Source of the DNA: Thiohalobacter sp.
GTDB taxonomy: Bacteria; Pseudomonadota; Gammaproteobacteria; DSM-19610
Length of the DNA stretch: 41,096 nt
Assembly: GCA_026984515.1 (NCBI GenBank)
Contig: JALSRZ010000135.1
Coordinates: 1 to 41,096, forward strand
Reading direction: 5' to 3'
In this document: one piece after another, positions 17,922 through 38,032 of the stretch
Layout: each line of letters starts with the position of its first letter
Numbering within the stretch: the stretch's first letter is position 1
Notes under the pieces: model-generated
Seen by the model: the letters and a program-made list of their open reading frames with translations, nothing else
Told to the model about the DNA's origin: nothing
The model's database searches: none
Position numbers and translations under genes: made by a program

Positions 17922-18821
17922 TTACTTGCCGGCAATATCTTCCAGTTGCTTCGCCTTGATGATCTGTCCGTCCAGGGCTGCTTCCTTTGCACTCTTGCCA
18001 TAGGCTACCGACAGCAGTGTGCTGTAGTACACCACCGGCATCTTGAACTTGGTGCCGTAGGTGGCGTTGATCTGGTCCTGGTAGACCTCGGTGTTCATCT
18101 GGCATACCGGGCAGGGGGTCACGATCATGTCGGCGCCATTGTCATAGGCGGACTCGATGATGTCCTTGATCAGGGCCTGGCTCTTTTCCGGCTCGGAGAA
18201 GGCCAGTGCGCCGCCGCAGCAGGACACTTTTTTCTCGTAATTGTCGCAGGCCTCGGCGCCCACCGTTTCGATCATTTTGTCGAGGTACTTCGGGTTCTCG
18301 AAGGACTCGCCGGCGATGCCGAACGGGCGGTTGGTCTGACAGCCGACGTAACCGGCGATCTTGAGGCCTTCCAGCGGCTTCTTGACGTGCTTGCCGAGTT
18401 CCTCGTAGCCGATGTCCTCGATCAGGACTTCCACCATGTGGCGGATCTTCTTGTCGTTCTTCAACTTGAGGCCGGCCTCTGCCAGCGCGGTGTTGGTCTC
18501 CGCCATCAGCTCGCTGTCCTCGTTGAGGCGTTCCTGGGTCTCGCGTGTGGCGAGCCAGCAGGCGGCACAGGTGGCAACGATGTCCTGGTCACCGTGGGCC
18601 TGCTCGGACAGCGCGATGTTGCGCGCCGACAGAGCAAGACGCGGCAGCTCGCCGCCACCGGCGTAACCAATGGAGGCCGAGCAGCAGTTCCAGTCCGGGA
18701 TCTCGTTCAGTTCGATGTCCAGCTCCTGGCACATGGTATCGACCGATACCTGGTAGTTGGAGGAGGAGGCGGCTTTCTGCGAGGAACAACCGGGGTAAAA
18801 GGAATAGGAATGTTTTGCCAT
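17922..18821 (-). CDS. hdrB: Heterodisulfide reductase subunit B-like protein
   Basis: A 299-residue protein with two CCG domains that bind the unusual noncubane [4Fe-4S] clusters found in HdrB. The Cys-rich motifs are visible: FYPGCSSQKAASS, DWNCCSASIGYAGG, TCAACWLATRET, then in the second half GYVGCQTNRPFG, KKVSCCGGALAFSEPEKSQ and VTPCPVCQMNTEVYQ. It is the last gene of qmoA-qmoB-hdrC-hdrB, starting 11 nt after hdrC. In this arrangement HdrC and HdrB stand where QmoC, the membrane quinone subunit, is fused in sulfate reducers. The partner is probably adenylylsulfate reductase or another sulfur enzyme encoded elsewhere. Confidence 0.92.
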   Translation of the reverse strand: MAKHSYSFYPGCSSQKAASSSNYQVSVDTMCQELDIELNEIPDWNCCSASIGYAGGGELPRLALSARNIALSEQAHGDQDIVATCAACWLATRETQERLNEDSELMAETNTALAEAGLKLKNDKKIRHMVEVLIEDIGYEELGKHVKKPLEGLKIAGYVGCQTNRPFGIAGESFENPKYLDKMIETVGAEACDNYEKKVSCCGGALAFSEPEKSQALIKDIIESAYDNGADMIVTPCPVCQMNTEVYQDQINATYGTKFKMPVVYYSTLLSVAYGKSAKEAALDGQIIKAKQLEDIAGK

Positions 18822-18832: not shown

Positions 18833-19459
18833 TCAGCTTCCGCTCTTGCCGATGCGCGCTTCTTCAAGCTCCTGCGCTTTTTTCAGCATGGCCTGGAAGC
18901 CTTTTGTGTCTTTGCAGCTGTGGCCGCCGAAGTATTCCATCGGGCTCATGCGTTTGGTCTTGAGCATGTTGAGGCCGATGTCTTTCATTTTCAGTGAGGT
19001 CTTGATGCCTTCGCCTATGCCGTTCATGAAATACAGCGACAGACCCAGTTTCAGTTCGTTTACGCGGCCTTTTTTGGTCAGGTTGTCCCAGAACAGCTGT
19101 GCGAACTTGGCAGTCGGCTGCTGTTGAGGGGCCAGGCCCAGGCGTTTGGAGTAGGTGGCCAGACCGTGCATGATGTGCGTGATCGGCAGACCGCGCGGGC
19201 AGCGGGCGATGCAGTTATAGCAGGAAGTGCACATCCACATGGAGGTGGATTCCAGCACTTCCTCGCGCTTGCCGGCGCGGATCATCATGAAGATTTCCTG
19301 CGGCGGGTGATCCCAGTGCGGACCCAGCGGGCAGGAGCCGGAGCACACGCCGCACTGCATGCACATCTTCACCCAGTCGCCTTCTTCCACGTTGTCCTGC
19401 ACTTCCTTGAGGAAGTTGCCGCGGTACTTATCAATCATTTCCTGGTTGTAGTTGCTCAT
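18833..19459 (-). CDS. hdrC: Heterodisulfide reductase subunit C-like protein
   Basis: A 208-residue iron-sulfur protein. Two [4Fe-4S] motifs are intact: CMQCGVCSGSCPLG near residue 32 and CTSCYNCIARCPRG near residue 72. The remainder is helical and contains no membrane helix. ATG at 19459 (MSNYNQEMIDKYRG) is 8 nt after the qmoB stop and has a GGAGC ribosome-binding site. A longer in-frame extension upstream lies entirely within qmoB and is not credible. It would pass electrons between QmoAB and HdrB. Confidence 0.92.
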   Translation of the reverse strand: MSNYNQEMIDKYRGNFLKEVQDNVEEGDWVKMCMQCGVCSGSCPLGPHWDHPPQEIFMMIRAGKREEVLESTSMWMCTSCYNCIARCPRGLPITHIMHGLATYSKRLGLAPQQQPTAKFAQLFWDNLTKKGRVNELKLGLSLYFMNGIGEGIKTSLKMKDIGLNMLKTKRMSPMEYFGGHSCKDTKGFQAMLKKAQELEEARIGKSGS

Positions 19460-19467
19460 GACTGCTC

Positions 19468-21684
19468 CTAGAACTTGAACGGGCTCATGCCCATTTTCTC
19501 GACCGCTTCGGCCATGTCGTTGATCAGTTTCGGCGCGCGCTCGATGTCGGTAATGGCGATCTCGTAGGTCTCCACACGTTCTTTTTCGAGACTCAGGGTC
19601 TCCAGCGTGTCGTCGACCTTGCTCATGCGAACGTTGGCCATTTCCGAACCCTTGACGAAGTGGCACTGGTAGTCGTCACCCTTCTGGCAGCCCATCAGGA
19701 TGATGCCGTCGTAGCCGGAGTTCAGCGCGTCGGTGACCCAGATGGTGTTGACGCTGCCCAGGCAGCGTACCGGGATGATGCGGGCAAACTGGCTGTAGCT
19801 GACGCCCTGCTGGGCGGCCATGTCGAGTGCCGGGTAGGCGTCGTTTTCACAGGCCAGCACCAGGATGCGCGGCTTCTCGTCGAACTCATCCGGTATGTCG
19901 ACGTTCTTGATCTGCTGGCCGACGGTATCGCAGGAGTAGTTCTCGAAGGAGATAACACGCACCGGGCAGGCGCCCATGCAGGTGCCGCAACGGCGACAAC
20001 GGGATTCGTTAAATACCGGGAAGCGTTTTTCATCTTCGTCGATAGCGCCGAACGGGCATTCCACGGTGCAGCGTTTGCACTGTGTGCAGCCTTCCTTACG
20101 GAAGATCGGGTACGACAGGTCACCGGAACGTGGATGCGCGGCGCGGCCGACTTTGGCGTTCTCGATTTCCTGGATAGCTTTCAGGGTGGCGCCGGTAGCG
20201 TCATCGATCGCCTGCTGGGTGTCCATCGGCCGGCGTACCGGGCCGCAGGTGTAGATGCCGGTGCGGCGGGTTTCATACGGGAAGCAGATGAAGTGCGAGT
20301 CATTGAAGCCGTACTTCAGGTGCGGCAGATCCTTGCCCTGGCGGTAGTTCAGGTTGAGGATGGAATCCACGCTGACTTCCCACTCGCCGGGTTCGTTCTG
20401 CGGCACTGCGTCGATATCGACGCCGGAGTTGGCGACCATGCCGGTGGCCAGCACCACCAGGTCGGCTTCTTCTTCCACATCTTCGTCGAGGATCATGTCC
20501 TTGAACCTGACCAGCGGTCCGTTACTGCCGGCGACGACTTCACTGACCTTGCCCTTGCGGAAGGTGACCAGCTTGTCCTGGCCGCTGCGGTAGAAGTCCT
20601 CGCCCGGGGCGCCCGGGGTACGCAGGTCGTCGAACAGGATTTCGGTTTCGATGTCCGGGTTCTGGTCCTTGAAGTACATGGCCTGCTTGATGGAGGTCAG
20701 GCAGCAGTCACCGGAACAGTAGTTCAGGTGGCCTTCCTTGTCGCTGCGCTGGCCGGCGCACTGGATGAAGGTGACCTTCTTCACTTCCTTGCCGTCGGAG
20801 GGCCGCTTGATCGGTCCGCCGTTGGCGGCGATGGCCAGCTGTTCCAGTTCCACGCGGTCGACCACGTCCTTGCTCTTGCCATAGCCGAGTTCCGGCAGCT
20901 GGCTGGCATCGTAGGGCGTGGCGCCGGAAGCCTGGATGATGGCGCCGAAGTTTTCGGTGGTGGTAGCACCGCTTTCGGTGCTGATATCGGCGGAGAAACG
21001 GCCCGGTGCACCGGAGGTCTTGCTGATGGTGGCGTTCAGGTGCACGGTGATGCGGCTATCGGCTTCGACTTCGGCGATCAGTTTTGTCACCGGGGTGTCA
21101 ACCGGGTCGGTGTAAGGCGAGTGCATGGGCACGTCTTTCCACATCTTGCCGGCATAGCCGCCGAGGGAACCGGTTTTTTCGACGATGTGTACCGGGTAGC
21201 CGGTTTTGGCGGCCTCGATGGCCGCGGTCATACCGGTGATACCGCCACCGACCACGAGGATGGTGTCGTTACTGCCTTTTTCCTGCTCGGAGGCCGGCAC
21301 GGTGGAGTGTTTGGCTTCGGCACAACCCATGCGGATGTAGTCCGCGGCCATTTCCTGCGTGGTTTCACGCAGGTCGTCCTCGTCGGGACGAATCCAGATG
21401 ACGCCTTCACGCAGGTTGGCGCGTGAAATGGTGACATTCTGGAAGTTAAAGGCCTCGGTCTTGGCGCGGCGTGAACAGGCGCCGATGACCACGCGGTTGA
21501 TGCCTTCGTTGTCGATGTCGGCCTGGATCATCTTCACGCCTTCGGCGGAACACAGGAAGTCGTGCTGCTGCACGACCTGCGCCTTGCCGTCGCGCTGGGC
21601 GATGGTGGCCAGTTCATCGCAGTCCAGGCGTTCGCCCAGTCCGCAACCCTTGCAAATATAAGCTCCAATCTTCATGTCTGCCAC
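19468..21684 (-). CDS. qmoB: QmoB-like HdrA/MvhD-type flavoprotein
   Basis: A 738-residue HdrA-related flavoprotein with a C-terminal MvhD-type domain, as in QmoB. In order: an N-terminal Cys-containing region (ICKGCGLGERLDC, DFLCSAEG, GACSRRAK), FAD site ILVVGGGITGMTAAIEAA, FIQCAGQRSDKE with LNYCSGDCCLTSIKQA, two ferredoxin motifs CTQCKRCTVECPFG and CRRCGTCMGACPVR, and an MvhD part with VLACENDAYPALDM, IPVRCLGSVNTIW and MGCQKGDDYQCHF. It starts 3 nt after qmoA. It likely carries electrons between sulfur metabolism and the quinone pool. Flavin-based bifurcation is possible but unproven. Confidence 0.92.
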   Translation of the reverse strand: MADMKIGAYICKGCGLGERLDCDELATIAQRDGKAQVVQQHDFLCSAEGVKMIQADIDNEGINRVVIGACSRRAKTEAFNFQNVTISRANLREGVIWIRPDEDDLRETTQEMAADYIRMGCAEAKHSTVPASEQEKGSNDTILVVGGGITGMTAAIEAAKTGYPVHIVEKTGSLGGYAGKMWKDVPMHSPYTDPVDTPVTKLIAEVEADSRITVHLNATISKTSGAPGRFSADISTESGATTTENFGAIIQASGATPYDASQLPELGYGKSKDVVDRVELEQLAIAANGGPIKRPSDGKEVKKVTFIQCAGQRSDKEGHLNYCSGDCCLTSIKQAMYFKDQNPDIETEILFDDLRTPGAPGEDFYRSGQDKLVTFRKGKVSEVVAGSNGPLVRFKDMILDEDVEEEADLVVLATGMVANSGVDIDAVPQNEPGEWEVSVDSILNLNYRQGKDLPHLKYGFNDSHFICFPYETRRTGIYTCGPVRRPMDTQQAIDDATGATLKAIQEIENAKVGRAAHPRSGDLSYPIFRKEGCTQCKRCTVECPFGAIDEDEKRFPVFNESRCRRCGTCMGACPVRVISFENYSCDTVGQQIKNVDIPDEFDEKPRILVLACENDAYPALDMAAQQGVSYSQFARIIPVRCLGSVNTIWVTDALNSGYDGIILMGCQKGDDYQCHFVKGSEMANVRMSKVDDTLETLSLEKERVETYEIAITDIERAPKLINDMAEAVEKMGMSPFKF

Positions 21685-21687: not shown

Positions 21688-22974
21688 TTAACCCTCCGCA
21701 CCGGCAACTTTGTTGACCACCTGGATGGCGCGCAGGGCGCTGGCCGTCGCGCTCTGTACCGCGCGGTTGACATCCAGGGCATCCGACGAACAGCCAGCGG
21801 CGAAAAATGCGCCGTTGGCTTCATCCAGTTCCACGAAACCTTCCTCGTTCAGCACCACTTCCATGGGGAAGCCGTCGGCCGGGACGCTGGGCTCCATGCC
21901 GATTGCCAGCACCACCAGCTCATGCGGGTTGCTGTACCGGTGGTATCCCTCGGTGTCCACGCCGTGCAGGACCGGGTTGCCGGTTTCCTTGTCTTCAGTG
22001 ATGGAAGCGACTTTGGACTTGGTGAAGGTGATGTTTGAATCGTTCTGCACCTTCTGGTAGAAGTCATCGATACGGTCGATGGCGCGGATATCGATGTAGT
22101 ACACGGTGCCTTTGGCGTCATCGCCGTACTGCTCGCGCAGGTAGGTGGTCTGCTTCAGGCTGGCCATGCAGCAGATGCGCGAGCAGTGCTTGAGGTGGTT
22201 CATGTCACGCGAACCGGCGCACTGGATGAAAGCGACGTCTTTCGCTTCCTTGCCATCGGACGGGCGCAGGATCTTGCCGCCGGTCGGGCCGTGCGGGTCG
22301 AGCATGCGCTCGAACTCGACGGAGGTGATGACGTTCTGGTAGCGGTCGTAGCCGTAGGGCTGGATTTTGCCGGCGTCGTAGGGTTTCCAGCCGGTGGCCC
22401 AGATGATGGCGCCGACGGTAATGGTGGTCTCGGCTTCGGTCATGTCGAGGTCAATCGCATCGTACTTGCACGCGGCTTTGGCTTTTTCCGCGTCGTCGGT
22501 ACCGATGATAGCCGGGTCCAGCACGAAGCGTTCCGGGTACGCCTGGTTGAACGGCCGGTAGGCGCCCTTGCGCTTGCCCAGTCCGTAGTTGTACTCGTCG
22601 TCGAACTCGGCTTCCACCGCGTTACCGCAGTCGCCGCAGCTGGTGCAGTTTTCATTCACGTAACGCGGTGCGGTCTTCAGCGTAACGCTGTAGTTGCCGG
22701 CGTCACCGCTGATCGAAGTTACCTCGGTCATGGCCATGACCCGCAGGTTGCGGTTGGCCTTGATCCGGCGGAGGTTGATCTCCAGACCACATTTGGGGTG
22801 GCAGAGTTTGGGGAAATATTTATAGAGCTGGCTGACGCGGCCGCCAAGCGATGGGTTCTTCTCCACCAGAATGACCTGTTTGCCGCACTCGGCGGCTTCC
22901 AGCGCGGCCGTCATGCCGCTGATGCCGCCACCCACCACCAGAATCGTCTGGTTGGTTGCGATAACCTCTGACAT
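21688..22974 (-). CDS. qmoA: QmoA-like HdrA-type flavoprotein
   Basis: A 428-residue FAD protein of the HdrA family without extra ferredoxin domains, as in QmoA. It starts with the dinucleotide-binding motif ILVVGGGISGMTAALEAAECG and continues with LGGRVSQLYKYFPKLCHPKCGLE, ENCTSCGDCGNAVEAEF (Cys ligands), WATGWKPYDAGKIQPYGY, and FIQCAGSRDMNHLKHCSRICCMASLKQT. The gene leads the operon. The upstream 366 bp contain an AT-rich promoter-like stretch (about 23098-23155 with palindrome ATCGAA-TCT-TTCGAT at 23116-23130). In sulfur oxidizers Qmo normally links adenylylsulfate reductase to quinones. The apr genes are not in this window. Confidence 0.92.
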   Translation of the reverse strand: MSEVIATNQTILVVGGGISGMTAALEAAECGKQVILVEKNPSLGGRVSQLYKYFPKLCHPKCGLEINLRRIKANRNLRVMAMTEVTSISGDAGNYSVTLKTAPRYVNENCTSCGDCGNAVEAEFDDEYNYGLGKRKGAYRPFNQAYPERFVLDPAIIGTDDAEKAKAACKYDAIDLDMTEAETTITVGAIIWATGWKPYDAGKIQPYGYDRYQNVITSVEFERMLDPHGPTGGKILRPSDGKEAKDVAFIQCAGSRDMNHLKHCSRICCMASLKQTTYLREQYGDDAKGTVYYIDIRAIDRIDDFYQKVQNDSNITFTKSKVASITEDKETGNPVLHGVDTEGYHRYSNPHELVVLAIGMEPSVPADGFPMEVVLNEEGFVELDEANGAFFAAGCSSDALDVNRAVQSATASALRAIQVVNKVAGAEG

Positions 22975-23341: not shown

Positions 23342-24154
23342 ATGACCGCGCAAGTCATTAAACCAGAAGAATATTGTATCACCGACGAGCCCTATTACGA
23401 GCCCGTCGGCAATGAAATAGAGGTTTTCGAGGCGGCCTGGGCCAACCAGCTGCCGGTACTGTTGAAAGGCCCGACCGGTTGCGGCAAGACGCGCTTCATG
23501 GAACACATGGCGTGGCGCCTGAAGCGCCCGCTGATTACCGTCTCCTGCCACGACGACCTGACTGCCTCCGACCTGGTCGGGCGTTTCCTGATCAGCGGTG
23601 GAGAGACCGTATGGGTGGACGGCCCGCTGGCCAGGGCGGTACGCGCCGGCGGTATCTGCTACCTCGACGAAGTTGTCGAGGCGCGCAAGGACACCACGGT
23701 GGTGATCCACCCGCTGGCGGACGACCGGCGCGTGCTGCCGATGGAGAAGCTCGGCGAAATGCTGGAAGCCGGTGACGATTTTTGCATGGCCATTTCCTAC
23801 AATCCCGGTTACCAGAGTGTGCTCAAGGACCTCAAGCAGAGTACCCGTCAGCGTTTTGTGGCGCTGGAGTTCGATTACCCGGCGGCCGGGCTGGAGGCTA
23901 AGATCATCGCCAGCGAAACCGGGGTGAGCACCGATACCGCTGCGCAGCTGGTCAAGTTTGCCCAGATGACCCGTAACCTGAAGGGCAGTGGACTGGAAGA
24001 AGGCGCCAGTACCCGCCTGCTGGTGCATGCTGCCAAGCTGATGAAAAGCGGCGTAAAACCGGTGGTGGCCTGCCGCTCCAGTATCGCCCAGGCGCTCACC
24101 GATGACGCCGAAATGCTGACCGCTGTAAACGAGCTGAGCGCGTCGGTATTCTGA
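23342..24154 (+). CDS. cbbQ: CbbQ, MoxR-type AAA+ ATPase (Rubisco activase subunit)
   Basis: A 270-residue AAA+ protein. CbbQ hexamers with CbbO remove inhibitory sugar phosphates from Rubisco, restoring activity. Walker A GPTGCGKT is at residues 43-50, Walker B ICYLDEV near 105-111. SASDLVGR-like [18 protein letters not shown] is a CbbQ/NorQ hallmark, and [21 protein letters not shown] holds sensor 1 and the Arg finger region. NorQ is the close paralogue, but the following gene is CbbO-like and there are no nor genes. ATG at 23342 gives the family N-terminus. The longer frame upstream is repeat sequence. Rubisco genes lie outside the window. Confidence 0.9.
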
Positions 24155-24240: not shown

Positions 24241-27200
24241 ATGGTCCAGCTCCCGGAAATCCCTGAATCCGCCACCCGCGATGCGCGGGTCGAAACGCCG
24301 TTGGACGATTACGAACTGCTCGACTTCGGGCGCGGCCGCAAGCTGGAACGCTGGGGTGCTTACCTGGTGGAGACGCGCGACGCGCTGGCCACGGGCGAGC
24401 CGTCGACTTCTGGCTGGCAGGCCGACTGGATCTATGTCGATGAAGTCGGGCACGCCGGCCAGTGGGAGCCGACCCGCAGCGGTTTGAAGCGCGAGTGGAC
24501 GGTGACAGTGGCCGGGATCACCGTGCCGTGCCGGCTGGACGCACGCGGCCGGGTCGGGTTGCAGGGCCGGGACCTGCCCTGCGGCCAGTGGGTACGCGAG
24601 CGCATCGACGGCTGCTATGACCTGGAAGACATCCGTCTGCTCAACCTGTTTGGCGGCAACGGGTTTGTCAGCGCGCAGGCTCTGGCTGCCGGTGCTTCGG
24701 TGGTGCACGTGGACGCCGACGCAGAGAGGCTGGCACTGGCCCAATCCCTGGCCGGAACCGCGGGTGTCGACTATGTGCAGGAAAACGTCATGGACTATGT
24801 CGAGGGCCTGCTGCGCCGCCAGCAGCGTTTCGACATGCTTGTACTCCCGGTGCCGGCGCTGGGGCACGGACCGAAGGGGCAGTTGTGGGATCGCGAAGTC
24901 GACCTGCCCCGGCTGGTGAAGTACCTGCCGCGCCTGGTCAGCGATCACTGCCTGGGCATCTGGTTGTCCACCGACGGTGGCGCCATTACCTGGAAAGCCG
25001 AGAGCCTTGGTCAATTGCTGCACGAGGTATTGCCCGGGCACACCATCGAGCCCCTGGTGCCGGGTGTCGGAACCCGCGACGGGCGTTTCCTGCCGGCGGG
25101 CGTCGCGGCGCGCTGGTTCGACGCCACGGATTTTCTCCAGACCGGTGACAGGCCGCTCACCGCGGCCCAGCTGGAAGAGCGCCTGGATGTGCACATGGTG
25201 TCGCTGGGTGCAGCGGAAGAACCGGCGCGCGCACTGGCGGACTACCCGCGAGCACAACAGGATTTCGTGTTGCGCTGTGCCGGCATGGTGGCGCGTACCA
25301 GTTCCGGGATGGCTTACAACTTTGTAACGCACGTGTGTGGTGCGTTACGCCTGATGGACGAAGCCGGTGTGGAGAACTGGCTGTTGTCCTGCATGGATAT
25401 CTACGATACACGCGGCCTGCATCCCGCGGTGGCCGCCTTCAGGGATGTCGAGACTTTTGCGCGCGAGTACCGGGCGCGTCGTAGCGGCCTGGCGCTGGAT
25501 GAAGTGGTCAATGTGCTGGAAGCCTTCGCGCACGGACTGAACGGCCGCCGTCTGAAAGTGGAAGCCGGTGAGCACGTCTACACCGATACGGAAACCCTGT
25601 TTTTGCCGGCCTCGGTCACCCTGTCGGCGCAGCGCGACGAGAATTTCCAGCTGTACAAGGCGATGCTCGTGCACCAGTGGGCGCAGACCTGGACCGGTAC
25701 CTGGCGCATCGATGTCAGCGCAGCATTGTCCCCCTATCCCGACTATGCGAGGGCACTGGCCTGTTTTCATGCACTGGAAACCCTGCGCCTGGACGCGTTC
25801 GTCGCCCGCCAGTTGCCGGGTGTGTTTCGCTCGCTGCAGGCATTTCGTGAGAGCGGTGAAGCCTCCCTTACGGAAGAGTGGCGCCTGGCGCGGCAGCGAC
25901 TGGCACGCGATAGCGCCGGCGTGCAGGACAGTCTGGAACTGCTGCCCGCCTTACTCGACCAGCCCTTGCCGGCCACCACGCCCTACCAGGGCGTGTTGCG
26001 ACCGGCCGACGTGGCGCGCGTGCGTAGTGCGCGTATCGAATCGGACAAACAGGCATTTCGCCTCGGCCTGTTGAAGATGCAGAACGATATCGATACAGCC
26101 CGCGAGCAGGGAGAAGAGGCAGCCGCACAGGAGGATACCGGGGCAGCGCCGGACCAAGCCGACAGCCCTGCGCTGCAACTGCGTGAAGTCCCGTCACAGG
26201 AAACGCCGGACGGCTTCAGCTACGAAATAGAACTTGATGGCCGGCCGCTGGACGTGCCCGACAACGTCAGGGGGACCATGGCCTCGATCCTCCAGGACCT
26301 GGGCGAGATACCCGACGATTACCTGCAGGCGGCGGGCGACGGTATGTACTACGCGGGCGAAATCGAAGCGCCCAGTTCCGAGGATGTGTGGAAGGGAACG
26401 TATCACGAAGAAGGCGCCTTTCTGTATAACGAATGGGACTACGAGCGCCAGAACTACCGCAAAAACTGGGCCGTGTTGCGCGAGATGGACGTGCTCCCGG
26501 GACAGGATCATTTCGTCAGTGACACCCTGTACAAGTACCGCGGGCTGGCCATGGAGCTGCGCCGGACCTTTGAAGCCCTGCGCGGTGAGGACAAGCTGCT
26601 GAAGAGACAGCCGCACGGTGACGATGTCGATATCGATGCGCTGGTCGAAGCGCTGGCCGATACCCGTCACGGCGCGGAAATGTCCGAGCGCCTGTTTACC
26701 CGTATGCACAAGCTGGAACGCAATATCGCCGTCATGTTCATGGTCGACATGAGCGGTTCCACCAAGGGCTGGATCAACGATGCCGAACGCGAAGCGCTGG
26801 TGTTGTTGTGCGAAGCCCTGGAGACCCTCGGTGACCGCTATGCGATCTACGGGTTTTCGGGCATGACCCGCAAGCGCTGCGAAGTCTACCGTGTGAAGCG
26901 TTTCGATGAACCCTGCGGAGAGGAAGTGCGCGCACGTATCAGCGGCATACAGCCCAGGGACTACACGCGCATGGGTGTAACGATACGCCACCTTACCAGC
27001 CTGCTGAATGAAGTCGAGGCGCGTACCAGGCTGCTGATCACGTTGTCCGATGGCAAGCCAGATGATTACGACACGTACCGGGGCGCCTACGGCATCGAAG
27101 ACACACGCATGGCGTTGATCGAGGCCAGGCGCAGCGGCATCCACCCGTTCTGCATCACTATCGATACCGAGGCGCGTGACTACCTGCCACACATGTACGG

Positions 27201-27282
27201 TGCCGTGAACTACGCAGTCATCGATGAGGTGCGCAAGCTGCCGTTAAAGGTGTCGGATATCTACCGGCGGTTGACGACCTGA
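24241..27282 (+). CDS. cbbO: CbbO Rubisco activase adaptor with N-terminal methyltransferase-like domain
   Basis: A 1013-residue protein. Residues from about 315 on match CbbO/NorD: MARTSSGMAYNFVTHVCGALRLM follows a YPRAQQDFVLRC helix region, and the C-terminal von Willebrand A domain has an intact MIDAS (VDMSGS, D836, S838, S840) and LSDGKPDDYDTY. CbbO docks the CbbQ ring on Rubisco through this domain. Typical CbbO is about 700-800 residues. The extra N-terminal 300 resemble the class I SAM-methyltransferase family that starts DYELLDFGRGRKLERWG. It keeps a Rossmann loop LLNLFGGNGF (about 133-142) with acidic D158, but the expected DPP motif is LPVPALG (about 202-208), so catalysis is doubtful. 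The start has a weak ribosome-binding site, 86 nt after cbbQ. Confidence 0.88.
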   Translation: MVQLPEIPESATRDARVETPLDDYELLDFGRGRKLERWGAYLVETRDALATGEPSTSGWQADWIYVDEVGHAGQWEPTRSGLKREWTVTVAGITVPCRLDARGRVGLQGRDLPCGQWVRERIDGCYDLEDIRLLNLFGGNGFVSAQALAAGASVVHVDADAERLALAQSLAGTAGVDYVQENVMDYVEGLLRRQQRFDMLVLPVPALGHGPKGQLWDREVDLPRLVKYLPRLVSDHCLGIWLSTDGGAITWKAESLGQLLHEVLPGHTIEPLVPGVGTRDGRFLPAGVAARWFDATDFLQTGDRPLTAAQLEERLDVHMVSLGAAEEPARALADYPRAQQDFVLRCAGMVARTSSGMAYNFVTHVCGALRLMDEAGVENWLLSCMDIYDTRGLHPAVAAFRDVETFAREYRARRSGLALDEVVNVLEAFAHGLNGRRLKVEAGEHVYTDTETLFLPASVTLSAQRDENFQLYKAMLVHQWAQTWTGTWRIDVSAALSPYPDYARALACFHALETLRLDAFVARQLPGVFRSLQAFRESGEASLTEEWRLARQRLARDSAGVQDSLELLPALLDQPLPATTPYQGVLRPADVARVRSARIESDKQAFRLGLLKMQNDIDTAREQGEEAAAQEDTGAAPDQADSPALQLREVPSQETPDGFSYEIELDGRPLDVPDNVRGTMASILQDLGEIPDDYLQAAGDGMYYAGEIEAPSSEDVWKGTYHEEGAFLYNEWDYERQNYRKNWAVLREMDVLPGQDHFVSDTLYKYRGLAMELRRTFEALRGEDKLLKRQPHGDDVDIDALVEALADTRHGAEMSERLFTRMHKLERNIAVMFMVDMSGSTKGWINDAEREALVLLCEALETLGDRYAIYGFSGMTRKRCEVYRVKRFDEPCGEEVRARISGIQPRDYTRMGVTIRHLTSLLNEVEARTRLLITLSDGKPDDYDTYRGAYGIEDTRMALIEARRSGIHPFCITIDTEARDYLPHMYGAVNYAVIDEVRKLPLKVSDIYRRLTT

Positions 27283-27316: not shown

Positions 27317-28291
27317 ATGAATAAACTGCACCGCCTGTTTGAGTTGCACCGGCTGTTGAGTCAACGGCGCCGGCCTGTACCGTTGCAGCTTATTTGCGAA
27401 CACATGGAATGCTCGGAATCCACGGCGCGCCGGTTGGTACATGCCCTGCGCGACGACATGAATGCGCCGCTCGAGTACGACCGTGCACAACGCGGCTGGC
27501 GTTATGACGATGTGCCCGGCCAGCGTTACGAATTGCCGGGCCTGTGGTTCTCGCCCGAAGAGCTGTATGCACTGATGGTGTCCTGGCATTTGTTATCCGA
27601 ACTCCAGCCCGGACTGGCGAGCCGTTACATTGAACCCGCGCGGGATAAAATAGAGCAGTTGTTACAGCAGCAAGGCGGGAGTAGTGCGGATATCGGCCGA
27701 CGTATCCGCATTCTGCAAATGGCGGCAAGGCCTGCCGACCTCAAATTGTTCCAACAACTCAGCCGCGCACTGTTTGAACGCCGCCGCATCAGCATCCTCT
27801 ACCATGGTCGCGAACGCGACAAAACGACCGAGCGCGACGTGTCTCCACAGCGCCTTGTCTACTACCGCAGCAACTGGTACCTCGATGCCTGGTGTCACCT
27901 GAGAAATGAGCTGCGCAGCTTCTCGCTGGACCGTCTTTACCTGGTCGATACGCTGGCGCAGGCCGCACGCGAATGCAGCGACAAGCTGCTCGACGGTCAC
28001 TTTAGCCGTGCCTACGGCATTTTCGCCGGCGAACCCGAAAACACCGCGGTGCTGCGCTTTACCCCGGCTGCCGCACGCTGGGTGGCCGACGAACAATGGC
28101 ACCCTGACCAACAGGGTAAGATATTGAAAAATGGCGGGTTCGAGCTTCGCATTCCGTACAGCGATCCACGCGAACTGATGATGGATATCCTCAAGTACGG
28201 GCCGGAGGTCGAGGTGCTGAGGCCGATGAAACTGCGCGAAACAGTTGCCGAAAAGCTTATGAAGGCCGCCCGGCAATACAAAAACAATTAA
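27317..28291 (+). CDS. WYL-domain transcriptional regulator (YafY type)
   Basis: A 324-residue regulator. Residues 1-60 form a DeoR-like winged helix (MNKLHRLFELHRLLSQRRR, CEHMECSESTARRLVHALRDD). Residues about 140-215 are the WYL fold with SPQRLVYYRSNWYLDAWC (W187 Y188 L189) and RSFSLDRL. The end is the WCX-type tail with PYSDPRELMMDILKYGPEVEVLRP. WYL proteins sense ligands, often nucleic acids, and control CRISPR and other defence loci, for example Sll7009 in Synechocystis. It lies directly before the operator at 28292-28310. A damaged copy of its C-terminus recurs at 29037-29155 before cas3. It is probably the controller of the locus. Confidence 0.88.
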   Translation: MNKLHRLFELHRLLSQRRRPVPLQLICEHMECSESTARRLVHALRDDMNAPLEYDRAQRGWRYDDVPGQRYELPGLWFSPEELYALMVSWHLLSELQPGLASRYIEPARDKIEQLLQQQGGSSADIGRRIRILQMAARPADLKLFQQLSRALFERRRISILYHGRERDKTTERDVSPQRLVYYRSNWYLDAWCHLRNELRSFSLDRLYLVDTLAQAARECSDKLLDGHFSRAYGIFAGEPENTAVLRFTPAAARWVADEQWHPDQQGKILKNGGFELRIPYSDPRELMMDILKYGPEVEVLRPMKLRETVAEKLMKAARQYKNN

Positions 28292-29200: not shown

Positions 29201-29260
29201 GTTGGCAGGGAGGAATGAATGCAGCCAATCAATACAAAACTGTCGCAGGGAAAGGAGCCG

Positions 29261-31954
29261 ATGGCCGGCGAGCAGAGCTATTATCGTTACTGGGGGAAAG
29301 CGTCGAAAGACGATAGTGGCGAGTTCCGTTGCCACTTGCTTCCGTACCATAGCCTTGACGTGGCGCAGATGGCAGCATGTTGGCTGGAAAACAGCAGCGT
29401 CTTGCGTGGTCGTCTCGCCACCATGACGCATTGTTCCATTAAGAAGTCCGTCGCCTGGGTGTTATTTTTCGTTGCCTTACACGATCTTGGCAAGTTTGAT
29501 ATTCGCTTTCAGCTAAAAGTCCCCGCAGTCTTAAATACGTTTTGGGGCGGTTCATCAGGCAATTTGCCAGATAACATTATTTCCAGAAACTACTGGCATG
29601 GTGAGTACGCGGCTTATTGGGCCTATCATGATCTCGCTGATCGGTTGCAATGGAAGCTGAACGAAGACATGCCTTGGGATGAACCTGTAGGCGTAGAGAT
29701 CTGGGCAGCGTGGCAACCCTGGATTCGCGCTGTAGCTGGACATCACGGTATGGAACCCTCATCAGCTAAGGAACCCGATGGCCAGCCACCTCTGGCTTTG
29801 CCCGAAATTGCGGAGCAAGATTGTAAGGCACGCCTGGCATTTATCGAGGCTATGGAAGAACTTTTTCTCAAGCCCGCAGCCCTTTCTCTCGAAGACACGC
29901 CGCCGCCATGCGATCTGGAATTTATCGCAGGGTTCTGCTCCGTCTGTGATTGGCTGGGCTCTACCACCGAAAACCGTGATGGCCAGTCCCGTTTTACCTA
30001 TTGTGAGGTTCCGGGAGACTTGGCGCAGTATTTTCAATCGCGAAAATCGATAGCGGAAACGCTACTGGACGAAAGTGGACTACTTGGCTGCACTGTAACA
30101 GCAGGCGGAATGGCTGATGTATTTCCGCAATTTGATTGTCCTCGTCAAGTACAAACCCTGGTGGATGAGCTGCCTGTTGAGGCTGGTTTGACTTTAATCG
30201 AATCGCCCACGGGTTCCGGAAAGACAGAAGCAGCCCTGGCGTACGCCGCCCGTTTGCTGGTCGCAGGGCAAGCAGAAAGCATTATTTTCGCCTTGCCGAC
30301 GCAGGCGACAGCTGACGCCATGCTGAATCGACTGACAGAAGTGGCTATTCGCTTGTTTGATAATGCTGATGTAGTACTGGCACACGGTAAGTCACGTTTC
30401 AACCCGGCATTTATCAACCTGAAGAAGAAAGCGGGAAAAAGTACTGCAAACAGCGTCCGGGAACGAGAAGCCGGTGTCCAGTGTGCGCATTGGCTGGCCC
30501 AAAGCCGAAAACGGGTGTTTCTCGGTCAGATAGGCGTATGTACCGTGGACCAGGTGCTGATTTCTGTGTTGCCTGTGCGTCACCGTTTTGTCCGTGGTTT
30601 TGGATTGGGCAAGAGTGTACTCATCATCGATGAGGTACATGCCTACGACGCTTATATGTATGGGTTGCTGGACCGGGTTCTACGGCATCAGAATGCCATG
30701 GGCGGCAGCGCTGTCCTGCTTTCCGCCACACTGCCACTGGGCCTGCGGCATGCGCTATTGAATTCCTGGGATGTGAGTGGTGACGTTTTGAATTCCGCGA
30801 ACGATTACCCTCTCGTAACGCAGGTGCAAGGAAAGCAAGCCAGGATGTACCCATTGCCAGATGCTGAGAAACAGCGTCTGGCAGAAGAGAAGCGAGTCGT
30901 GCATCTGGAACAGCTGGAAACCGGCGACATGCTACCCGATGATGATTTGCTTGCGCGGATTGTCAGGGCGGCTGATGCAGGCGCCAATGTTGTGGTGATC
31001 TGTAATCTGGTGGCCGATGCGCAGAAACTGGCGGAACGTCTGTCAGATTTGACGCCTCGGGATATTCTGTTGTTTCACTCTCGCTACCGTTTCAAGGATC
31101 GCCAGCGGATTCAACAACAGGTCATGTCCCGTTTTGGAAAGAGCGGGCAACGGATTCAGGGTGGTATTCTGGTTGCAACCCAGGTTGTGGAGCAGAGTCT
31201 CGATCTGGACTTCGACTGGATGATTACACAGCTCAGCCCCGTCGACCTCCTGTTTCAGCGACTTGGCAGGCTGCATCGTCACGAACGCAAACGACCGACA
31301 GGTTTTGAAAAGGCCGCCTGTACCGTGCTCGTCCCGGTCGATAACCAGTATGAGCTACACAAACTCATCTACGGCAATGGCAAGGCTTCCAACTCCCGAG
31401 TGCTGTGGCGTACAGAACAAATAGTGAGGCAGCATTCCCAATTGTGTTTTCCCGATGTTTATCGGCCGTTGATCGAAAGTGTGTATGAAGAAGAATCCTG
31501 GGATGACGAGCCACGCGAAATCGTTCAGGAATACGAAAAGTACTGGCAGGCCCAGTACGCCAGCCGTAGTGTCGCACGCCAAATCAGCGACATCGAAAAT
31601 GCCTGGCCTGATGACGACAGTCATGTGAACCTGTTGACCCGCGATGGTGAAATGAGTCTGAGTATTGTTCCTGTCGAGGAAACCGCTGATGGACTCTGTT
31701 TGCTCGGTGATGACACACCTGTCGCCCAGCTTGAGGGCTGGGAGCAAGCTGAACTGGTTATGCGAAACACCTTGCCGGCACCGGCCTCATGGCGCAACCT
31801 CGGCCTTCCAGAGGCTGCGAAACAAGACGGTTTGATATGGCTCGTGATGGAAGCGGATGGCATGGATGGGTGGCGATTCAGCACTCGGAAGGCGGTCTTC
31901 GACTATGACCGAAAATACGGATTAAGGATGACAAGAAATGAATCTACTCACTGA
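29261..31954 (+). CDS. cas3: Cas3 helicase-nuclease, type I-E
   Basis: Cas3 is recruited by target-bound Cascade and unwinds and degrades the DNA. The 897-residue protein has an N-terminal HD nuclease (LHDLGKFD, H74 and D75), Walker A SPTGSGKTEA (Lys 321), DEVH box (residues 457-460), SATLP, and the motif VATQVVEQSLDLDFD followed by QRLGRLHRH. An ATG at 29219 with a good GGGAGG ribosome-binding site would add 14 residues. The ATG at 29261, preceded by AAAGGAG, puts YWGK and the HD residues at exactly the positions of E. coli Cas3, so it is preferred. It overlaps cas8e by 17 nt. Confidence 0.95.
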   Translation: MAGEQSYYRYWGKASKDDSGEFRCHLLPYHSLDVAQMAACWLENSSVLRGRLATMTHCSIKKSVAWVLFFVALHDLGKFDIRFQLKVPAVLNTFWGGSSGNLPDNIISRNYWHGEYAAYWAYHDLADRLQWKLNEDMPWDEPVGVEIWAAWQPWIRAVAGHHGMEPSSAKEPDGQPPLALPEIAEQDCKARLAFIEAMEELFLKPAALSLEDTPPPCDLEFIAGFCSVCDWLGSTTENRDGQSRFTYCEVPGDLAQYFQSRKSIAETLLDESGLLGCTVTAGGMADVFPQFDCPRQVQTLVDELPVEAGLTLIESPTGSGKTEAALAYAARLLVAGQAESIIFALPTQATADAMLNRLTEVAIRLFDNADVVLAHGKSRFNPAFINLKKKAGKSTANSVREREAGVQCAHWLAQSRKRVFLGQIGVCTVDQVLISVLPVRHRFVRGFGLGKSVLIIDEVHAYDAYMYGLLDRVLRHQNAMGGSAVLLSATLPLGLRHALLNSWDVSGDVLNSANDYPLVTQVQGKQARMYPLPDAEKQRLAEEKRVVHLEQLETGDMLPDDDLLARIVRAADAGANVVVICNLVADAQKLAERLSDLTPRDILLFHSRYRFKDRQRIQQQVMSRFGKSGQRIQGGILVATQVVEQSLDLDFDWMITQLSPVDLLFQRLGRLHRHERKRPTGFEKAACTVLVPVDNQYELHKLIYGNGKASNSRVLWRTEQIVRQHSQLCFPDVYRPLIESVYEEESWDDEPREIVQEYEKYWQAQYASRSVARQISDIENAWPDDDSHVNLLTRDGEMSLSIVPVEETADGLCLLGDDTPVAQLEGWEQAELVMRNTLPAPASWRNLGLPEAAKQDGLIWLVMEADGMDGWRFSTRKAVFDYDRKYGLRMTRNESTH

Positions 31955-33422
31955 CCCCTGGGTGCCGGTTCAGGACGCCAGCAAGACCGTGCTGATCAGC
32001 TTGCAGGATGTGCTGACCAGCGATGAGGACCACCAGATTGTATTGCCACGCGACGATATGGAGCTGGCATGTCTGCAACTGTTGATCTGCCTGACTCAGG
32101 TGCTGTTTCTTCCCGAAGATTCCGGGGCATGGAAGCGACGAATTAAAACGCCACTGGATGCCGATGAGTATAAAGCGGGTATTGAGCGATATATCGACTG
32201 GTTCGATTTGAATCATCCTGAATGGCCGTTTATGCAGTCGCGAGGTGTTAGTGCAAAGAAAGTCACGCCAATACAAAAGATTCTTATAGGACTTCCTGCG
32301 GGCACAAGTAGCCATGCGTTTTTTAATGGCCCGGGAGAGATCGGTCAGGTTTCCCAGTCCGTGGCAGCAATCTCACTTTTTAATATGGCAAATAATTATT
32401 CGTATGGTGGAGGGATAAAAGAGGGGCTTCGTGTTGTGTCTCAGAAGTCGCCAATTACTACGTTGATGTCCGGTCACATGCTACGGCGCACAATCTGGTT
32501 TAATGTTCTGCATAAGGAAAGTCTGTTGAATATTATGCCAGACTACGATCGGCTCAAGGAAAATGACAACCCGGTCTGGGTCGAACCAATTAAACCTAAA
32601 TCCACTTTCCATGCACATGAGATCGGGTTGATTCGAGGCCTGTTCTGGCAGCCTGCGCACATCGAATTGGCTTTTTCTTCTGGTGGCGAGTGCGACTTGC
32701 TTGGTGTAAATACTCAGGATGCTTTGGTATCAGGGTTCTGTATAGAGAAATTTGGGAGTTATAAGACTGGCGGATTTGATGTAGAGGGGCGATGGATTCA
32801 CCCCCATTCCCCTCGAGTTCTCGACCTGAAAAAGGGGGAGATGAAATATCTTTCTTTCACTACTACCGCTCCGGCCTGGACGCAGCTTGATCACTTGTTG
32901 CTTGAGTCCAAAGACGATAAGCAGGGATACATCCCCGCCGAAGTGGTACGGCAGTTCAAACGAGACCTCATGCAATCGGATCAGTTGATTGTCGGTGGTT
33001 ATCGCAACAAGCAGGCGTCCATTTTGCAGCGGCGCCATGAACTTTTCCCCTTGCGTCCCGGTTGGGATAAGAATGGCCAACTTTTTTCACAGTTTGTTCG
33101 CATGACGCTGGAAATCAAGACACTGTTGCGCAATAAATTGTATGGCTTCGCCAAGTCGGCAGGAGTTCCCGGTCTGCATGATCAGGCCGAAGCAATCTAT
33201 TACCACCAGTCAGAGCCACTGATTCATCAGACCCTGCGAGAAATTGATTGGTCGAAACCTGGTGATCGTTTGCGCAATTTAAGCAATGATCTTGTTGACC
33301 TCAGTTGGAGAATTTTTGAACAGGTCGCCCGTCCCTATGCCCACGAACCAGGGATGATCAAGGCATTGGCTGTCGCCCGAACGACCCTGGGTAGAGCATT
33401 CCGTAAATTGAGGGAAACCTGA
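31938..33422 (+). CDS. cas8e: Cascade large subunit Cas8e (Cse1/CasA)
   Basis: Cas8e recognises the PAM and recruits Cas3. The 494-residue protein starts MNLLTDPWVPV like E. coli CasA and keeps LPRDDMELACLQLLICL, HPEWPFMQSRGVSAKKVTP, NMANNYSYGGGIKEGLR, GLIRGLFWQPAHIEL, GGYRNKQASILQRRHELF and the C-terminal PYAHEPGMIKALAVARTTL. The zinc-binding cysteine cluster present in some relatives (after the FWQPAHIEL segment) is not seen here, where the stretch reads SSGGECDLLGV. G+C is visibly lower than in the metabolic genes upstream, a sign of transfer. It overlaps cas3 and sits 3 nt before cse2. Confidence 0.95.
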   Translation: MNLLTDPWVPVQDASKTVLISLQDVLTSDEDHQIVLPRDDMELACLQLLICLTQVLFLPEDSGAWKRRIKTPLDADEYKAGIERYIDWFDLNHPEWPFMQSRGVSAKKVTPIQKILIGLPAGTSSHAFFNGPGEIGQVSQSVAAISLFNMANNYSYGGGIKEGLRVVSQKSPITTLMSGHMLRRTIWFNVLHKESLLNIMPDYDRLKENDNPVWVEPIKPKSTFHAHEIGLIRGLFWQPAHIELAFSSGGECDLLGVNTQDALVSGFCIEKFGSYKTGGFDVEGRWIHPHSPRVLDLKKGEMKYLSFTTTAPAWTQLDHLLLESKDDKQGYIPAEVVRQFKRDLMQSDQLIVGGYRNKQASILQRRHELFPLRPGWDKNGQLFSQFVRMTLEIKTLLRNKLYGFAKSAGVPGLHDQAEAIYYHQSEPLIHQTLREIDWSKPGDRLRNLSNDLVDLSWRIFEQVARPYAHEPGMIKALAVARTTLGRAFRKLRET

Positions 33423-33425
33423 GCC

Positions 33426-33872
33426 ATGAATGAAGTCATTGATTTTGTAGCTATAGCGAGACGTTATACCGAGTTGGGAAGTGGGTCCAAGGCGGAACTG
33501 CGACGTGCCGGCAAGCCGGATGATCTGGTGCTGATCCCTGCTTTTTATCATCTACTGCCTGGTGTCCGCACGGATAAACGTTGGCAGCGCGTGGTGTTTT
33601 TCCTGCCTTACATAACGCATGCAGAAAACGGCATGTCGCTGGGTAAACAGCTGGCGGGAAAAGTCAGTGAAGAGCGCCTGTTTCAAGTGCTGCGTTCCAC
33701 TTCGCCAAATGACCTGATTCAGCTTCGCAGATTGGTGAAACAGGTTGACCCTGTCCTGGACTGGAAAAAGTTGGGCGAGATGCTTTTCTACTGGAATGAA
33801 CAGGCCAAGCGCCGCCTGATTGAAGACTATTTCCTGCCACCCGTCGATTCGAAAAAGGAAGCCGTATCATGA
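33426..33872 (+). CDS. cse2: Cascade small subunit Cse2 (Cas11e/CasB)
   Basis: A 148-residue, mostly helical, basic protein. Two copies line the Cascade belly and hold the displaced strand. The family pattern is seen in GSKAELRRAGKPDDLVLIPAFYHLL, RVVFFLPYITHAENG, LGKQLAGKVSEERLFQVLRSTSPNDLIQLRRLVKQV and the terminal DWKKLGEMLFYWNEQAKRRLIEDYF. The stop overlaps the cas7e start by 4 nt (ATGA), so translation is probably coupled. Unambiguous given position between cas8e and cas7e. Confidence 0.93.
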   Translation: MNEVIDFVAIARRYTELGSGSKAELRRAGKPDDLVLIPAFYHLLPGVRTDKRWQRVVFFLPYITHAENGMSLGKQLAGKVSEERLFQVLRSTSPNDLIQLRRLVKQVDPVLDWKKLGEMLFYWNEQAKRRLIEDYFLPPVDSKKEAVS

Positions 33873-35017
33873 GCGAAAAGAACTTTGTTAATTTTCATGT
33901 CCTGATTTCCCATAACCCATCCTGTCTGAATCGGGATGATATGAACCTGCAGAAAACCGCAATTTTTGGTGGGGAACGGCGGGTACGCATCTCATCGCAG
34001 TCATTAAAGCGAGCTATGCGAAAAAGTACGTATTACCGAAAATACTTAGGTCATTCATCGGTTCGTACTCGTGAATTGGGCATCTACCGTAATCAAATTA
34101 GTAGGGAGATGGGCAGCCGGTTTCCTACGGAAATAATAGATCGAGCTATTACATTTTGGGCCGACGCCAGAGGAATTGAAGATTTTGAGTCATCTGAAAC
34201 TGCTGTGGCTCCTTGGGTAGTCGAAGAAACGGAGATACTTTGTGAAGCATTAGTAGAGAACGATGAGTTCAAACGCTTGTGTGACGAATATGTAGAAATT
34301 ACCGGAAATGCGGATAAAGACAAGAAGAAAAAACGATCCTTAGAAAAAAAGTCCACAGCCTTACTGAAAAAAGAAGGTGTGTGGGATGCTCTTCTATGTG
34401 CAGTGTCGAATGCTATAGATATCGCGCTGTCTGGTCGCATGGCTACATCGGGGCTTATGACAAACATTGATGGTGCCATGTCTATTGCGCACTCAATAAC
34501 CACACACTCGACAGACTCCGATATTGACTGGTTCAGTGCGGTAGATGACTTGGTAGAACAAGGCGCCGGCCATCTAAACAGTCAGGAACTCAGCTCAGGT
34601 GTGTTTTATCGCTATGCCAGCCTGAATATACCGCATCTGCAACAGAACCTTGGCGGGGCTACACGGGAAAGAGCATTGGAAATTGCAAAACATGTGGCTC
34701 ACATGCTGGCGACTGTTGTTCCAACAGCCAAGAATCAGAGTACTGCACCGTTCAATCTCGCGGATTTCGTCATGATCAGTTTCAGCGATCTACCGGTCTC
34801 CCTGGCTAATGCTTTCGAGAAGCCGATTGATGATAAGGGGGGTTATTTGCGGCCGTCTATCGAGGCGTTGACGGGTTACTGGAAAAACATCCATCGAGGC
34901 TACGGCCTCGATGAACAGGTGGCGGCGTTCCAGGTGGGCGGCGCAGACGGTGAGCCCGAGACCTTCGCCAGCCTGCCAGAGCTGGAAGACTGGGTGGCCA
35001 AGGATAGCGGAAAATGA
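33869..35017 (+). CDS. cas7e: Cascade backbone subunit Cas7e (Cse4/CasC)
   Basis: Cas7e polymerises along the crRNA, six copies per complex. The 382-residue protein begins MSEKNFVNFHVLISHNPSC and has LNRDDMNLQKTAIFGGERRVRISSQSLKRAMRKS, the conserved RNA-binding palm start. Later ALSGRMATSGLMTNIDGAMSIAHSITTHS, VPTAKNQSTAPFNLADFVMI and the C-terminal Gly-rich segments follow. A Lys-rich insertion (DKDKKKKRSLEKKSTALLKKEG) occurs in the middle. The coding sequence is noticeably AT-richer than neighbours outside the locus. It overlaps cse2 and cas5e by 4 nt each. Confidence 0.95.
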   Translation: MSEKNFVNFHVLISHNPSCLNRDDMNLQKTAIFGGERRVRISSQSLKRAMRKSTYYRKYLGHSSVRTRELGIYRNQISREMGSRFPTEIIDRAITFWADARGIEDFESSETAVAPWVVEETEILCEALVENDEFKRLCDEYVEITGNADKDKKKKRSLEKKSTALLKKEGVWDALLCAVSNAIDIALSGRMATSGLMTNIDGAMSIAHSITTHSTDSDIDWFSAVDDLVEQGAGHLNSQELSSGVFYRYASLNIPHLQQNLGGATRERALEIAKHVAHMLATVVPTAKNQSTAPFNLADFVMISFSDLPVSLANAFEKPIDDKGGYLRPSIEALTGYWKNIHRGYGLDEQVAAFQVGGADGEPETFASLPELEDWVAKDSGK

Positions 35018-35670
35018 TGAAGGCGTATGTTGCACTGAAATTGCGAGGTGTGATGCAGGCCTGGGGTGGTCATACTTTTGAAGATCTTCGCCACACCGAA
35101 CTGATTCCAACACGTAGTGGTATTCTGGGGCTGTTAGCGGCTTGTTTCGGTATCGACCGGACAGATCAGGCGCGCCTCGAAGACCTGGCCGGGAGTGTAG
35201 CCATCGCCGTGAGGATGGACAGAGCACCGCAGCGCATTACCGATTTTCATACTGTGATGGATGCTCGCAAGGTGGATGGAAAAGCCAGAAAGGACCCCAT
35301 CGTTTCACGCCGCGAGTATCTGTGTGATGCAGAATACACCGTTTTACTGGAGATCTCCGAACTTGCCGGGTTTTCGGTAGCTGATGTGGTGCGCGCCCTT
35401 CAGCGCCCGGTTTACACACCATTTCTTGGAAGACGCTCCTGCCCTACATCCCGACCGCTCTATGAGGCGACCATTGATGCGGTAGATTTTGAGTCGGCGT
35501 TTGGTCTGGTTGAGCCGTGTAAAGGAACAGTTTATAGCGATAAATGTCCGCGCTCGGGAGGCACACGATTTCGCCTGCGTGATATTCCGTTGTATGGGCG
35601 TAAACGACAGTTTGCTTCGCGCCAGCTTTATGTCTATCAGCAGTCGGGGGACGGTGATGATCCTCAGTAA
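35014..35670 (+). CDS. cas5e: Cascade subunit Cas5e (CasD)
   Basis: Cas5e caps the 5' handle of the crRNA. The 218-residue protein starts MMKAYVALKLRGVMQAWGGHTFEDLRHTELIPTRSGILGLLAACFGI, the typical RAMP start with the invariant QAWG and PT(R/K)S motifs. It also has RITDFHTVMDARKV, SRREYLCDAEYTVLLEI and RPVYTPFLGRRSCPTSRPLYEA. Two adjacent ATGs (35014, 35017) are both possible; the first overlaps the cas7e stop. It overlaps cas6e by 14 nt. Complete and apparently functional. Confidence 0.94.
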   Translation: MMKAYVALKLRGVMQAWGGHTFEDLRHTELIPTRSGILGLLAACFGIDRTDQARLEDLAGSVAIAVRMDRAPQRITDFHTVMDARKVDGKARKDPIVSRREYLCDAEYTVLLEISELAGFSVADVVRALQRPVYTPFLGRRSCPTSRPLYEATIDAVDFESAFGLVEPCKGTVYSDKCPRSGGTRFRLRDIPLYGRKRQFASRQLYVYQQSGDGDDPQ

Positions 35671-36256
35671 AGTTATTCTTGCGCCGGGTAATCTTCAAAA
35701 CGCATGGGAGTGGCACCGTGCATTATGGTCCTTGTTTCCAGATATCGAGTGCCAACCCAATGAATCCTCGCCTTTTCTTTATCGTGTGGAGCGGCTGGAC
35801 CTTGCCAAAGGTGCCGAGGTTCTCGTTCAGTCGACATTACGTCCTGTAGAACGATCAAAAAATGCCAAAGTGGCGGCGACTCGCATGATTGAACCCAGTC
35901 CACAAACGCACCAGCCACTACGCTTTCTGCTTACTGCCAATGTCACCAAAACCATTCGGGATAAAGAGGCTCCTGACCGTAAGATCCGTGTTCCATTGAT
36001 CAGGGAGGAAGAGCAAATTCGTTGGTTGGGCAGGAAGCTTAATGGGGCGGCTGATAAAATCAGCGAACTGAAGGTACGGCCTCATCCGCCAATCTATTTC
36101 CGTAAAGGGGGCCGGTCTGGAAAAATCGTGAAGGTAAGTTTTGAAGGGTTGCTGGAGACAGCCGATCCCGAACGGTTAAAGGAAATACTGGTGAGCGGGA
36201 TCGGCCCGGCCAAAGCCTTTGGGTGTGGTTTGTTGCTGGTGCGTCGACCGTCGTGA
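35657..36256 (+). CDS. cas6e: Cas6e crRNA endonuclease (CasE)
   Basis: Cas6e cuts the pre-crRNA at the repeat hairpin and stays bound to the 3' end. The 199-residue protein starts MILSKVILAPGNLQNAWEWHRALWSLFPD with His 20 in the catalytic position. It has RVPLIREEEQIRWLGRKLNGAA and ends with the glycine-rich loop GIGPAKAFGCGLLLVRRPS. The start at 35657 lies in the cas5e end; a longer frame upstream is a shadow of cas5e. Diverged copies of the final glycine-rich loop coding sequence recur twice downstream (to 36399 and 37342), each before a toxin-antitoxin module. It is the last gene of the Cascade operon proper. Confidence 0.94.
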   Translation: MILSKVILAPGNLQNAWEWHRALWSLFPDIECQPNESSPFLYRVERLDLAKGAEVLVQSTLRPVERSKNAKVAATRMIEPSPQTHQPLRFLLTANVTKTIRDKEAPDRKIRVPLIREEEQIRWLGRKLNGAADKISELKVRPHPPIYFRKGGRSGKIVKVSFEGLLETADPERLKEILVSGIGPAKAFGCGLLLVRRPS

Positions 36257-36332
36257 GTATGTGCTCGCCTCAGCTTGCGGGTAAAAAAACCGGTGGTTAC
36301 GCGACTTAATGAGGATAGCAAGAAATAAAGTG

Positions 36333-36399: not shown

Positions 36400-36421
36400 T
36401 ATCGCAGCAAAAAATCCATAA

Positions 36422-36445: not shown

Positions 36446-36466
36446 ATTAACAGCAGGGTAATTCTG

Positions 36467-37274: not shown

Positions 37275-37279
37275 ATACG

Positions 37280-38030: not shown

Positions 38031-38032
38031 TT

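Follow-up and report, generated by a model that had tools for sequence, protein, structure and literature searches.

A qmo-associated lineage of CbbQO/NorQD-type AAA+ machines in which the VWA protein can carry a methyltransferase-like domain

One gene of Thiohalobacter sp. looks like the Rubisco activase subunit CbbO with some 300 additional residues at its N-terminus, which raises the question of what the added domain is and which client the protein serves. We examined the gene in the whole 41,096-nt stretch of contig JALSRZ010000135.1 (assembly GCA_026984515.1), hereafter the window. Below, O designates the VWA protein and Q the ATPase encoded upstream of it (Table 1).

The gene is a single ORF of 1013 codons (1013 aa) with an ATG start, located at positions 24241-27282 of the + strand, in which residues 1-315 stand ahead of the O part. 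A long N-terminal extension had been described in a first-pass annotation, and the strings quoted there, DYELLDFGRGRKLERWG, LLNLFGGNGF and LPVPALG, all lie within these residues. Roughly 20 loci of relatives contain the same single ORF of ~1000 codons, and similarity to the relatives' proteins runs from residue 1 on (MVQLP/MVELP). For the extension taken by itself, dN/dS is 0.06-0.08 in the comparison with the closest relative, much as for the remaining protein, and two other pairs give 0.17-0.23. The extension is translated and under strong purifying selection. An internal start near residue 310, the alternative raised in the first-pass annotation, is ruled out by the conserved N-terminus and the low dN/dS of the extension, and an assembly chimera by the many independent assemblies with the same fusion.

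The homology of the N-terminal domain to methyltransferases is beyond chance. A search with residues 1-315 finds 2igt with an E-value of 5.6e-23 when the single sequence is used and 9.2e-41 with a profile. Their predicted structure (pLDDT 88.7, pTM 0.87) also has 2igt as its best structural match (TM 0.81, Z 34.9, rmsd 2.2 A over 287 residues), with rRNA methyltransferases of the RlmI/RlmK type coming next. The earlier suggestion of a methyltransferase scaffold is borne out, here joined to a VWA adaptor. Motif I (NLFGGNG) is retained in the window protein and its NLFxxxG pattern in most other fused copies; most motif II/III positions of the domain are retained as well. At residues about 202-208, the position of DPPS, the motif IV region of the window protein reads LPVPALG. 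All seven stand-alone relatives have DPP[STKA][YF]G, whereas DPP is retained in two of the 23 fused copies (G117 and G174) and lost in 21 (Fisher p 2e-5 on raw copy counts, kinship ignored); the 23 include G086 and G204, both cut by contig ends, with the fusion assumed for G204. In the window clade the motif has become LP[VAIC]Px[LTVI]G, and other fused copies show SPPRIG, TPPTFA, RPPQIQ and the like, in agreement with the degenerate catalytic motif first reported. Since motif IV has decayed and motif I is widely retained, catalysis has likely been lost, and the SAM pocket may plausibly persist, as far as sequence can tell.

The closest solved relatives of the O part are the NorD chains 9qhd/9qh6. 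Its VWA part is homologous to NorD (E 5e-55), and the MIDAS motif DMSGS...T...SDG is invariant among 12 aligned sequences. Q lies directly upstream of the fused gene (PF07728, 1.9e-32; PF08406, 9.9e-30), so that the locus shows what marks MoxR AAA+/VWA pairs of the CbbQ/NorQ type, an AAA_5 plus CbbQ_C ATPase with a VWA adaptor downstream. A structure prediction of the full-length 1013-aa protein had low confidence in the VWA half (pLDDT 64, pTM 0.37), too low for the domain arrangement to be drawn from it.

The genome encodes two Rubiscos, form I on contig C113 and form II on C109 (forms assigned from sequence and context). A dedicated cbbQO accompanies each of them, and C181 carries a nor cluster with a norQD pair of its own. 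Within this genome the closest paralogue of O is NorD (40% identity), and the CbbOs are 32-34% identical over the VWA part only. The Q tree resolves qmo-associated Q, CbbQ and NorQ as separate groups with 99-100% support; CbbQ from six Rubisco-linked loci form a 100/100 branch without the window Q, and NorQ from four nor operons another one (99/93). In the O tree, the window O branch stands apart from NorD, CbbO1 and CbbO2 (100/100), the reference branches being long; NorD_G000 and G033 are long branches in the trees, and the exact placement of both is unsure. The window pair neither groups with the Q/O of Rubisco loci nor adjoins Rubisco genes, and it neither groups with NorQ/NorD of nor operons nor is linked to norCB. 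Window Q and O constitute a third, well-supported lineage of CbbQO/NorQD-type AAA+ machines. The 'normal CbbO body' of the first-pass annotation is therefore right in that residues 316-1013 are a NorD/CbbO-type VWA protein, but the protein falls outside the CbbO lineage in the O tree, as its Q falls outside CbbQ in the Q tree.

The Qmo module is the electron-transfer partner of APS reductase. In the window, hdrB and hdrC take the place of QmoC, an arrangement (qmoAB-hdrCB) described in PMC4136832. The true start of hdrC is probably near 19456-19462, because the relatives' proteins have ~207 aa. The WYL-domain regulator has no counterpart in the relatives' loci and therefore probably lies outside the module. 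On the other side, a sulphur globule protein gene (PF17228, 17313-17792) adjoins hdrB, which fits a sulfur oxidizer. Directly downstream lies a type I-E-like CRISPR-Cas locus (29219-40945) with cas3, a cas8e-like gene, Cas7 (CT1975), Cas1 and an array of 61-nt periodicity with the repeat GTGTTCCCCGCGCATGCGGGGATGAACCG. It contains three similar 66-nt segments (36197-36262, 36340-36405 and 37283-37348), each encoding a GPAKAFGCGLLLVR-like end, which we take to be typical of Cas6e; this suggests duplicated or broken cas6e copies.

Table 1. Features of the locus around the fused gene, in window coordinates
Feature	Position	Strand	Remarks
hdrB-like subunit	17922..18821	-	two CCG domains
hdrC-like subunit	18833..19666	-	
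qmoB, HdrA-like with FlpD/MvhD domain	19468..21684	-	
qmoA, HdrA-like	21688..22974	-	divergent from Q
Perfect 28-nt inverted repeat, 20-nt loop	23252..23327	.	in the qmoA-Q gap, shortly ahead of the likely Q start 23342
Q, MoxR/CbbQ/NorQ-family AAA+ ATPase	23342..24154	+	AAA_5 + CbbQ_C, Walker A GPTGCGKT, helix-2-insert motif
N-terminal domain, residues 1-315	24241..25185	+	beta-rich segment + class-I SAM-methyltransferase fold
O part, residues 316-1013	25186..27282	+	helical NorD/CbbO-like adaptor region, linker, C-terminal VWA with MIDAS
WYL-domain regulator	27317..28291	+	after the fused gene

The company of Q and O recurs well beyond the window. Most of its relatives have hdrB-hdrC-qmoB-qmoA divergent from Q and the fused gene, and unfused Q-O pairs lie beside qmo in eight genomes (G033, G076, G100, G101, G102, G165, G276 and G366). 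Among 369 genomes of the class, 42 have both O and QmoA, 15 O only, 20 QmoA only and 292 neither (odds ratio 41, p 2e-27, raw genome counts with kinship ignored). After dropping the 23 linked genomes, in which O and QmoA lie within 13 kb, the counts are 19/15/20/292 (odds ratio 18, p 6e-12, kinship ignored), and some of the 19 remaining co-occurrences may be linked across contig breaks. At the cut-off, 20/62 QmoA genomes are without O and 15/57 O genomes without QmoA, some assemblies being incomplete; the sample includes many incomplete MAGs, and scoring was limited to 3-6 first-look candidates in each genome. Within the window's order, the presence of the fused gene matches that of QmoA in 19 of 20 genomes (10 both, 9 neither), and the discordant one, with the fused gene only, is 71% complete.

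APS reductase follows the same division. In the 20 genomes searched for AprA, those with the qmo module carry a copy of the window type (74-95% identical for full or near-full copies; 60% for a partial copy in G376), whereas those without it have only a 48-49% type. The two types fit the published grouping of APS reductases into Qmo-linked and AprM-linked ones (PMC2211403). A CxxCxxCC protein (PF03692) is encoded next to aprA in the window genome (L047, 12343-13341) and also next to AprA in G064, G165 and G256. Among open-licence papers we found none tying a MoxR/VWA pair to qmo genes.

A search for further carriers of the extension, which the first-pass annotation had proposed, found the fused gene in 10 other members of the order (the ORF being cut or interrupted in three) and about a dozen further gammaproteobacterial loci; in the class sample it spans about ten families. 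The branch of the window O also includes O proteins that lack the extension, most of them about 705-770 aa long, and the one in G101 is nested among fused ones in the O tree. The methyltransferase domain is an accessory and dispensable part, because unfused O occurs beside qmo. Conversely, G112, G150 and G262 have a free methyltransferase gene with DPP[ST]F and are without O and QmoA. In G150 (L076, about 8516-10470) remnants of Q and of the O VWA flank, in the original order, an intact methyltransferase ORF with DPPSFG and its own stop. That the domain outlives Q and O in these three genomes hints at a function of its own. The fused state needs five changes on the O tree, at least two of them forced by well-supported branches; since the methyltransferase and O trees have their main groups in common, a single fusion with later losses is the favoured history on phylogenetic grounds. 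A seemingly different second N-terminal fusion in G276/G371 (a 1033-codon frame) was rejected, as the frame only overlaps Q in another reading frame.

Some fused genes have another neighbourhood. ccoI encodes a copper P-type ATPase, and in L027, L031, L033, L037, G281 and G376, which belong to two branches only, the fused gene adjoins ccoI together with ccoN or a neighbour of ccoN and is without adjacent Q. G376 has a Q of the window lineage beside qmoA on another contig; a search for Q in G281 found none. In L027, L031, L033, L037 and L087 the fused gene is near ccoI and the start of a cbb3 oxidase operon, and in L031-L033 a small rhodanese-like gene lies between it and the ccoI/cbb3 genes.

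We propose, at about an even chance of being right, that the QmoAB-HdrBC/APS-reductase module is served by Q and O, which would act on it as a remodelling chaperone akin to NorQD/CbbQO, the pseudo-methyltransferase being a docking or SAM-sensing module. In the NorQD structures (9qhd, 9qh6) a VWA finger sits inside the NorQ pore and force is exerted via the NorD linker (PMC13036017); by analogy, a hexameric Q would hold one O with its VWA domain in the pore. N-terminal regions have been proposed to set client specificity (PMC9976466), and that of O would dock on the client. ATP hydrolysis would then remodel the client and mature or repair one of its cofactor sites, perhaps one for Fe-S or flavin in QmoAB-HdrBC or AprAB. 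O would have gained the methyltransferase scaffold, now present in about ten families, before motif IV decayed, leaving what is most likely a non-catalytic docking or SAM-sensing module. Going by gene company alone, the client would be a component of the Qmo/Apr module; we further infer the direction of action, and that the N-terminal domain may bind SAM. For a remodelling chaperone we counted the NorD-like VWA with its MIDAS and the helix-2-insert (H2i) motif of Q, as in NorQD. For the assignment to the Qmo module we counted the adjacency, the co-occurrence, the separate Q lineage and the AprA split, and for a non-catalytic added domain the motif IV decay; against the proposal as a whole, the QmoA genomes without O and O genomes without QmoA, the cco context without Q, the dispensability of the methyltransferase domain and the three free DPP[ST]F copies.

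Those unpaired genomes (15 O-positive without QmoA, 20 QmoA-positive without O) would also suit a general maturase of sulfur oxidizers, associated with qmo through habitat or linkage and with no physical client relation. We consider this unlikely, given that the adjacency recurs in about ten families, unfused and re-ordered loci included, that both are jointly absent within one genus and that the association holds without the genomes of known O-QmoA linkage. The cco neighbourhoods, together with NorD as the closest paralogue in the genome, would speak for a maturation factor of heme-copper oxidases or cNOR, inserting metal as NorQD does, with the cbb3 oxidase as client and the proximity to qmo secondary. 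This is improbable, as the cco context is confined to two branches, G376 retains its same-lineage Q beside qmoA and the cNOR locus has a norQD of its own.

Two further alternatives concern the added domain. Were it still active as a methyltransferase, acting on the client or a cofactor as Q-O opens the client, the retained motif I and most of motifs II/III, the purifying selection, the DPP of G117 and G174 and the DPP[ST]F of the free copies would be accounted for; the LP[VAIC]Px[LTVI]G of the window clade and the Asp lost from most other fused copies and kept in all stand-alone ones make it quite improbable. The Rubisco activase variant of the first-pass annotation, a CbbO whose domain binds Rubisco, its inhibitor or SAM, has become highly improbable. 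The CbbO/NorD-type architecture and the Rubisco encoded in the genome fit it, but both Rubisco loci have their own cbbQO, whose CbbO/CbbQ lie on separate branches; the window pair sits beside qmoAB-hdrCB and tracks QmoA; no Rubisco genes were noted across the inspected loci with qmo or the fused gene; and the relatives G003, G009 and G012 have Rubisco without the fused gene.

We return to a remodelling chaperone of the Qmo module. In the boldest form of this proposal, Q-O would be a dedicated maturation or repair factor of QmoAB-HdrBC/APS reductase whose decayed methyltransferase docks the client or responds to SAM, so that electron transfer in sulfur oxidation would be tied to methyl status; this is a doubtful but not negligible prospect. 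Annotation easily labels such genes CbbQ/CbbO or NorQ/NorD, and they are then read as Rubisco activase or denitrification genes, while their genomic company places a large Q-O lineage with the QmoAB-HdrBC/APS-reductase route of sulfite oxidation. As the cellular role of QmoAB-HdrBC is called unclear in PMC4136832, Q-O offers a specific candidate factor that can be deleted. The added domain has the look of a former methyltransferase that now serves an AAA+ machine as an accessory part. Of wider reach than this fusion is the existence of a Q-O lineage linked to qmo.

Among known systems, exactly the gene set of the QmoAB-HdrBC complex of sulfur oxidizers adjoins window Q-O, and the accessible text of PMC4136832 and PMC10504309 makes no mention of a Q-O partner pair. 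CbbQ homologues without Rubisco association (the 'fourth class' of PMC4633670) are similar as a CbbQ-like group outside Rubisco loci, and no link to qmo genes or a fused domain is drawn in the accessible part of that paper. The CbbQ/CbbO Rubisco activase (PMC4660213) shares the AAA+ and VWA pair and a divergent N-terminal region, but the window pair is on a different branch, away from Rubisco genes and at 32-34% identity in the VWA part. The Agrobacterium SAM-dependent methyltransferase 2igt and the RlmI/RlmK-type enzymes resemble the N-terminal domain in fold and sequence over its whole length and in SAM motif I, whereas the window protein has lost the Asp-Pro-Pro of motif IV and is fused to a VWA adaptor. 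NorQ/NorD, the AAA+/VWA pair for cNOR iron insertion, shares the order of Q and then VWA adaptor, the Q family, the H2i motif GRxL(L/I)xxxxT, the helical N-region, the linker and the C-terminal VWA with MIDAS; unlike it, window Q and O form separate branches, have qmoAB-hdrCB and not norCB as neighbours, and include in O an extra methyltransferase-like domain of 315 residues.
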